Origin: Bacillus tianshenii
GTDB taxonomy: Bacteria; Bacillota; Bacilli; Bacillales; Bacillaceae_N
Length of the DNA stretch: 64,000 bases
Reading direction: 5' to 3'
Assembly: GCA_020524525.2 (NCBI GenBank)
Contig: CP129018.1
Coordinates: 3,724,001-3,788,000 of the forward strand
The notes beneath the pieces were generated by a model. That model saw only the letters and a list, made by a program, of their open reading frames with translations, searched no databases and had not been told where the DNA came from. The position numbers and the translations under genes were made by a program. Shown here piece by piece: positions 58,035-58,750 of the stretch. Position 1 is the stretch's first letter, and each line of letters begins with the position of its first letter.

Positions 58035-58592
58035 TTAAGCTTCCATTGCTTCAGTGAATGGTTCAACTGGCATTTCGCGTCGTGTATGAAGGGTATATAA
58101 GTCCTTGTGAATACAAAGAAGATGATATTTGAATTCACCTTGGTTAATTTGTTCAAATACATTTGGGTAAAGCTCATCGGCAATTGACACATAAGGCAGT
58201 TTTTTTGCAGCATGAAAAGACCGGTCATTTGTTGTACGGATTTTCATGAAAATGGTTTCAATTTCGTTTTCGAAGAATAATTCATTGAAGAACGTGTCTT
58301 TTGCAGGTTTATTATAGCCTTTTCCATGAAAAGGTTTTCCGATCCATGTGCCTAGAAAGCCTGCATTGTCTTCAATATCAAACAAGTTAATTGTTCCGAT
58401 TGGGTTCCCCCATTCGTCAAGAATCGTTCTAGAGATTAATTCACCTTGGTCTTCGGCTTCGATCATTTGCTTTGTCAAAAATAGAAATTCTTCATAAGAA
58501 GAAGCTTTATGACGTACAAAAGGGAAGACTTCAGGGTGCACCATCAATTCAAAAAGTTGCTCACATTCTACTAAGTCACGTTTTTTAAGCAT
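58035..58592 (-). CDS. GNAT family N-acetyltransferase (RimJ/RimL-like)
   Basis: A 185-residue acetyltransferase with motif A in WIGKPFHGKGYNKPAKD (about 95) and beta strands GNPIGTINLFDI. Substrate unknown; the closest style is amino-terminal or small-molecule acetylation. The start ATG 58592 follows GGAGGG with 8 bases. It interrupts the yfhE-yfhF order found in B. subtilis and carries an unusual structured leader, so it may have been acquired with its own control. Confidence 0.85.
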   Translation of the reverse strand: MLKKRDLVECEQLFELMVHPEVFPFVRHKASSYEEFLFLTKQMIEAEDQGELISRTILDEWGNPIGTINLFDIEDNAGFLGTWIGKPFHGKGYNKPAKDTFFNELFFENEIETIFMKIRTTNDRSFHAAKKLPYVSIADELYPNVFEQINQGEFKYHLLCIHKDLYTLHTRREMPVEPFTEAMEA

Positions 58593-58750
58593 GCCATTTT
58601 CCCTCCATGTTCATTGAGGGCGCAGTCCACACGGGTAGTGCCACCCTCGAATTTTTCATATCAAATTACGGTATAAAAAATTCGGGGTGGGAATCGAACC
58701 CACTAGGACCAGCTGACATAACTGGTGGCGCACCATTTGCCTTCCCTTAC
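58593..58750 (-). promoter_or_regulatory. structured leader RNA of the GNAT gene
   Basis: In RNA order the leader holds a tRNA-like cloverleaf (58750-58680), a 30-base arm that can pair with part of it (58662-58633), GAGGG (58648-58644), CCCTC (58620-58616) and the ribosome binding site GGAGGG (58606-58601). CCCTC can pair either with the first GAGGG or with the ribosome binding site, which would switch translation. The segment AGGGTGGCAC resembles the start of the T-box core AGGGTGGNACC. No Stem I or specifier loop of a T-box was seen. Confidence 0.5.
58680..58750 (-). ncRNA. tRNA-like cloverleaf (pseudo-tRNA)
   Basis: Reading 58750 to 58680: acceptor GTAAGGG paired imperfectly with CCCGAAT; D-arm GGC/GCC with GG in the loop; anticodon-like arm CCAGT-TATGTCA-GCTGG; five-base variable loop; perfect T-arm GTGGG-TTCGATT-CCCAC. 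Position 33 is A rather than the obligatory U, two acceptor pairs fail and no CCA follows. It cannot be a normal translating tRNA. Confidence 0.5.

Follow-up and report, generated by a model that had tools for sequence, protein, structure and literature searches.

The 5' leader of a GNAT acetyltransferase mRNA from Bacillus tianshenii likely acts as a cis-acting switch, in which a tRNA-like body together with an A/U hairpin would serve as sensor for two mutually exclusive downstream states. The leader is about 155 nucleotides long and lies on the minus strand (58746-58593) of the window, i.e., the whole stretch of 64,000 nucleotides that was analysed, between yfhF (TIGR01777, 58859-59755) and the GNAT gene (58035-58592). 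Read from 5' to 3', it starts with GGG-AA, a D-arm, an anticodon-like arm, the segment YCTA, a T-arm and CCC, and continues with an A/U-rich hairpin, GAGGGTGG, a variable stretch, CCCTC, GGAGGG and the start of GNAT. The parts of the window copy are the following:

58744-58746, minus strand: 5' strand GGG of the acceptor-like stem, partner of CCC at 58684-58686; two of the three pairs invariant in 77 distinct rows
58727-58741, minus strand: D-arm, GGC / loop AAATGGTGC / GCC, with the elbow GG in the loop; compensatory GAC/GTC in locus L092
58708-58726, minus strand: anticodon-like arm, ACCAG ... CTGGT; double-sided changes in 4 of 6 pairs, loop free in length and sequence
58704-58707, minus strand: variable region CCTA (consensus YCTA); TCTA or CCTA in 178 of 180 leaders
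58687-58703, minus strand: T-arm, GTGGG TTCGATT CCCAC; T-loop identical in 175 of 175, compensatory GTAGG/CCTAC in L239, L240, L241 and L064/L246
58684-58686, minus strand: 3' strand CCC of the acceptor-like stem; invariant
58649-58683, minus strand: A/U-rich hairpin, GAATTTTT ... AAAAATTC; 58683-58676 pairs with 58656-58649, double-sided changes in 7 of 8 pairs
58641-58648, minus strand: switching strand GAGGGTGG; its partner is either the 3' half of the T-arm with the acceptor (58690-58685) or 58616-58622
58616-58622, minus strand: CGCCCTC, 3' strand of the anti-sequestering helix, which covaries in 47 diverse leaders
58601-58606, minus strand: ribosome binding site GGAGGG, complementary to CCCTC
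58035-58592, minus strand: GNAT acetyltransferase gene, 185 amino acids (PF13302, 43 bits)

According to the proposed scenario, the sensor module would consist of the tRNA-like body and the adjoining A/U hairpin. When the body is folded, the T-arm would retain its own 3' strand and leave GAGGGUGG free for CUGCCCUC; pairing of these two would expose GGAGGG and allow GNAT to be translated. If nothing stabilises the tRNA-like fold, GGGUGG would invade the T-arm through its 3' half, and the released CCCUC would cover GGAGGG and block translation. Interconversion of the two states is inferred, as is a stabilising effect of the signal on the tRNA elbow. As the signal, a factor acting on tRNA elbows is the most likely, such as TruB, a T-loop methylase or RNase P, followed by a small molecule or an ion favouring the tRNA-like fold. 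More tentatively, the leader may represent a new class of riboregulators in which an mRNA uses its own tRNA-elbow mimic as a sensor of tRNA-handling factors, so that modification, maturation or ribosome load would be sensed through competition for the T-arm of the mimic. Such a device, if it exists, would couple the status of tRNA to an acetyltransferase.

An earlier note on this DNA had described a segment able to form all four tRNA arms. The D-, anticodon- and T-stems and the T-loop TTCGATT were indeed found, but the conserved acceptor has only three pairs and not five of seven, its place being occupied by the adjacent A/U hairpin (58683-58676 with 58656-58649), which abuts the three-pair acceptor and could stack on it. 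As the note had also reported, no CCA is present on the window leader. The 181-nucleotide leader folds 3.5 standard deviations better than dinucleotide shuffles, none of 200 being as good. Comparative evidence for the fold is strong: over 25 consensus pairs we counted 113 double-sided changes versus 27 in shuffles, and none of 500 shuffles reached 113. Among 77 distinct aligned members, 98% of the cells are paired and double-sided changes occur at 13 pairs; this alignment was fitted to the covariance model and is thus biased toward its structure, slid controls giving at most 61% paired. The compensatory changes are located in the D-stem (L092), the T-stem (in a sister family), the anticodon stem and the A/U hairpin. 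The D-loop AA[AT]TGGTGC is nearly invariant in 180 leaders, and the variable region and T-loop are nearly fixed too, whereas the anticodon-like loop enclosed by the five-pair stem varies in sequence and, between 1 and 18 nucleotides, in length. Because the D- and T-loops are almost invariant and the anticodon loop is free, the feature being conserved is the tRNA elbow and not the anticodon.

A BLAST search found the leader in 47 of 61 related genomes, one copy in each, with E values down to 1e-26. The covariance search that had been suggested as a check, using a model built from 26 sequences, gave homologues down to E 1e-22 in 317 of 399 Bacillales genomes; at the weak end (around E 1e-4) these matches probably correspond to genuine tRNAs, which is what those inspected turned out to be. 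Most Bacillales genomes, and also one sister family, have members of the model family, as a single copy per genome; in a sample of the class, all strong matches fell within Bacillales and this one sister family. Weak matches outside Bacilli (31-39 bits) were rejected, since those inspected proved to be real tRNAs, mostly tRNA-Gly(UCC). A pattern scan of named genomes retrieved at least 119 stretches; among the matches listed are Priestia, Cytobacillus, Neobacillus, Metabacillus, Peribacillus, Niallia, Oceanobacillus, Halobacillus, Parageobacillus, Anoxybacillus, Jeotgalibacillus, Viridibacillus and others. The scan required an exact T-arm, so that the invariance of the T-arm is partly imposed there, but nearly equal invariance was seen in the BLAST and model matches. 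No leader match was found in phages, and the one match in plasmids, on a Cytobacillus replicon, again stands 5' of a GNAT. Judged from these sequence comparisons, the leader is a strongly conserved cis-acting RNA present in hundreds of Bacillus-like bacteria. As to its transcription, a consensus promoter scan near the window leader scored no better than shuffles; many relatives present a TATGATA-like box 5' of the leader, as a promoter candidate only.

The downstream part of the leader contains the elements of the switch proper. GAGGG (58648-58644), CCCTC (58620-58616, within CGCCCTC) and GGAGGG (58606-58601) lie, on the minus-strand reading, exactly where the earlier note had placed them, and CCCTC is able to cover the ribosome binding site. 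The inverted repeat that had been drawn between the T-arm and 58633-58662 exists as well, with a slightly different conserved extent of about 58690-58670 with 58661-58641. Thus, GAGGGUGG has two exclusive partners, namely the 3' half of the T-arm, in which case the ribosome binding site is hidden, or CUGCCCUC, in which case the site is free. A pairing of GAGGGTGG with CTGCCCTC is possible in most leaders, although a single match is not rare by chance, 7 of 8 pairs being attained in 56% of shuffles. Covariation is more informative: in 47 divergent representatives, pairs 6-8 of GAGGGUGG/CUGCCCUC are 89% paired versus 76% in shuffles (0 of 2000), and pairs 9-12 are 51% paired versus 40% (1 of 2000). 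In two leaders (L088 and L201), each of the three strands contains one additional G, in a coordinated way. At pairs 6-8, GAGGGTGG is more conserved than its partner CTGCCCTC, which is expected if GGGTGG must also pair with CCACCC in the 3' half of the T-arm. For this second pairing, between the T-arm and GGGUGG, no compensatory changes were observed; it rests on conservation, both strands being conserved for other reasons as well, and its end shows a C-A mismatch in 11 of 157 leaders.

Folding of 138 leaders with each state enforced, another of the suggested checks, fits the logic of the switch. With the T-arm forced, the mean probability of the anti-sequestering helix is 0.71 and that of sequestration of the site 0.23; with the alternative forced, the values become 0.00 and 0.83. 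By computation, the leader therefore possesses mutually exclusive helices, one of which covers the ribosome binding site, as in a cis-regulatory leader. The window copy itself is a weak computed switch, its sequestration being 0.54 with the T-arm forced. Computed energies, which do not include tertiary contacts, favour the OFF state by about 8 kcal/mol, so that a stabiliser of the tRNA-like fold is needed and would act as an activator. In several halophile genera, a hairpin CCCTCC..GGAGGG followed by a T run is found just 5' of the GNAT start; in L003, L014, L018, L019, L138, L139 and similar leaders the hairpin is followed by ATTTTTT. It is a possible terminator overlapping the ribosome binding site, and in these lineages the CCCUCC/GGAGGG hairpin with its U run could also end transcription.

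The association with the GNAT gene is very tight. In all 202 parsed loci the leader lies directly 5' of GNAT, on the same strand and within about 200 nucleotides, and a GNAT is present in every leader-positive genome, 47 of 47 among the 61 relatives and 34 of 34 in the class sample. Within the 61 relatives, presence of leader and of GNAT agree except for one genome, which has a diverged GNAT and no leader. The reverse association is loose: about 70 GNAT-positive genomes of the class sample and many GNAT orthologues outside Bacillales have no leader. The model did not match any upstream region of GNAT in 20 leader-less genomes, and a search for degenerate copies 5' of leader-less GNATs gave nothing significant, including with filters off. 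Since the leader always occurs with GNAT and GNAT often without it, the leader belongs to the GNAT gene, and this gene can exist without the leader. In Cytobacillus spongiae the GNAT gene is solitary, with neighbours that are unrelated or on the opposite strand, and in one genome of the window's genus (G001) leader and GNAT are jointly absent. GNAT orthologues of family f197 (L282, L283, L298-L300) carry another conserved leader, AAGGCATACCATGCGCGGTTCAAAC or CCAAGGCGGTTCGAAC, which contains a T-loop-like GGTTCRAAC and may be an RNA unrelated to the present leader or related to it only very distantly. In a sister family (f49), two GNAT leaders (L292 and L296) have CTAGTTCTTTGGGTTT followed by AATTCC, below model significance, which looks like a decayed T-arm region.

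The conserved order of the parts, their covariation and the linkage with GNAT support what the earlier note had suggested, namely a cis-acting tRNA mimic followed by a competing hairpin and a hidden ribosome binding site. It had named the lack of homologous leaders with compensatory changes as an argument against this reading; homologues exist, keep the order of the parts and compensate in the tRNA-like stems as well as in GAGGGUGG/CUGCCCUC.

The GNAT protein bears on a different explanation, according to which the acetyltransferase, having tRNA or aminoacyl-tRNA as substrate, would bind the tRNA-like body and control its own translation, as threonyl-tRNA synthetase does through the thrS operator. 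We consider it unlikely. It would agree with the fact that the leader is never seen without GNAT, and with profile matches of GNAT to MccE and RimL-type enzymes: the closest solved sequence is MccE (E 1e-6), followed by RimL-like and spermidine acetyltransferases, and the invariant Ser of the family aligns with a Ser of MccE. The substrates of MccE/RimL-type GNATs include aminoacyl-nucleotide analogues; both MccE and RimL act on a microcin C type aminoacyl-nucleotide compound, and a Ser has been proposed as their general acid (PMC4964394). However, the GNAT family is acidic (median pI 5.4), many orthologues do not have the tRNA-like leader, and by the logic of the fold, binding to the folded body would switch the gene ON, an uncommon outcome for feedback. 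The AlphaFold2 model has a confident fold (pLDDT 86.8), and a search with it returned GNAT folds (best E 2e-9); many are polyamine acetyltransferases or other GNATs, and with an identity of about 15% they are not decisive for the substrate. Where SpeG has, before the segment K-[IL]-G-F, a Tyr that we take to be its catalytic residue, the family reads Ala (KAAEKLPY, from alignment to 6vfm). The C-terminus is -EA in 156 of 191 proteins, though the preceding tail is variable and modelled with low confidence.

A similarly low probability is given to a processing or stability element, in which RNase P, RNase Z or another tRNA enzyme would bind or cut the leader and set the lifetime of the mRNA, the downstream pairing being secondary. 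The elbow and the T-arm are the most conserved part of the leader and are also the features used by RNase P and RNase Z (PMC4810234). Moreover, four leaders of the sister family (L064 and L239-L241) have kept the tRNA-like body with a compensated T-arm but have lost CCCUC, so that the body must matter without this platform and may have an additional role, such as recruiting a tRNA enzyme; this also counts against the switch model. On the other hand, such an element leaves unexplained the covarying helix beside the ribosome binding site, and the leader, which has only three acceptor pairs and lacks CCA, does not offer the geometry in which cleavage usually takes place.

Very improbable is control by a leader peptide whose start would be the [A/T]TG that follows GGGAAGG in the D-loop, the movement of the ribosome then deciding the downstream pairing. 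Of 174 leaders, 173 have ATG or TTG there, preceded by purine-rich sequence, but GTG is never used and the structure of the D-loop accounts equally well for the conservation. A conserved peptide was rejected because the reading frame is not conserved, the lengths vary (mostly from 5 to 60 codons) and the likeness is limited to the five codons encoding the D-arm. In five leaders, including L023, the frame of the D-loop ATG is open through the whole leader into GNAT (228-234 codons), and an N-terminally extended protein is therefore possible. Finally, a decaying tRNA gene or functionless tRNA fossil, which could be suggested by the resemblance of the T-arm to several tRNAs from the same genome or order, tRNA-His and tRNA-Gly among them (as single tRNA of origin, local alignment points to His but the covariance model to Gly), is refuted by the near-invariant loops, the compensatory changes and the single fixed location across many genera.

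A switch controlled by a tRNA-elbow mimic remains our preferred reading, and its comparison with known systems points to a type of RNA gene switch that is probably new and has not been described before. As for tRNA itself (RF00005), the leader presents the elbow sequence (GG in the D-loop and TTCRA in the T-loop, within AA[AT]TGGTGC and TTCGATT) but has three conserved acceptor pairs instead of a 7-bp acceptor and no CCA. Neither ARAGORN nor Rfam called a tRNA at the window leader, Rfam found none at the leader in 13 further loci, and ARAGORN made one call in 33 loci (tRNA-Lys in L002). Rfam searches at gathering and relaxed thresholds gave nothing relevant except a T-arm fragment of the tmRNA model. 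Elsewhere in the window, they identified a Bacillaceae-1 RNA (RF01690, 55734-55799, minus strand, 70 bits), about 3 kb from the leader, and a TPP riboswitch (RF00059, 6580-6683, plus strand, 86 bits).

T-box riboswitches (RF00230) are also leaders of Firmicutes in which a tRNA-type structure chooses between two exclusive downstream pairings, and GAGGGTGG resembles the T-box sequence AGGGTGG. Rfam, however, reported no T-box at the window leader even at E up to 10, nor at related loci when the gathering score was applied. In the GNAT leader, the tRNA-like part is carried in cis and itself forms the conserved 5' module, with no Stem I or specifier, and GGGUGG would pair with the T-arm and not with a CCA end. 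Elbow recognition is central to T-boxes, and viral tRNA-like structures such as that of TYMV are non-tRNA RNAs mimicking the elbow (PMC4810234). The viral structures share this mimicry with our leader but are placed at the 3' end of a viral genome and often aminoacylated, whereas the GNAT leader is a bacterial 5' leader without CCA. In the E. coli thrS operator, a tRNA mimic in the 5' leader likewise controls translation (PMC9976931); it is an anticodon-arm mimic without acceptor equivalent, read by ThrRS, while the GNAT leader has a free anticodon loop with conserved elbow and T-arm, and precedes a GNAT gene and not that of a synthetase. With translational riboswitches the leader shares a sensor module, exclusive helices and a hidden ribosome binding site, but its sensor is tRNA-like and corresponds to no known aptamer. 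It thus belongs neither to T-boxes, nor to the thrS operator, nor to viral tRNA-like structures, and we describe it as a new leader family, which by inference operates as translational switches do, its sensor being a mimic of the tRNA elbow. In agreement with the earlier note, which knew of no element with this layout, none was found in Rfam 15 or in the openly available literature searched; the structured-RNA surveys consulted on this point (PMC8632094, PMC6429828, PMC11109978, PMC2864571) do not describe the leader.

To our knowledge, no earlier conserved bacterial leader has an in-cis tRNA-elbow mimic as its sensing part. If the switch is real, the leader would be the first of its kind, present in species as common as Priestia megaterium and yet absent from Rfam 15, and it would offer direct genetic access to the cellular factors that recognise tRNA elbows outside of translation, as well as an initial hint at what a widespread GNAT does.
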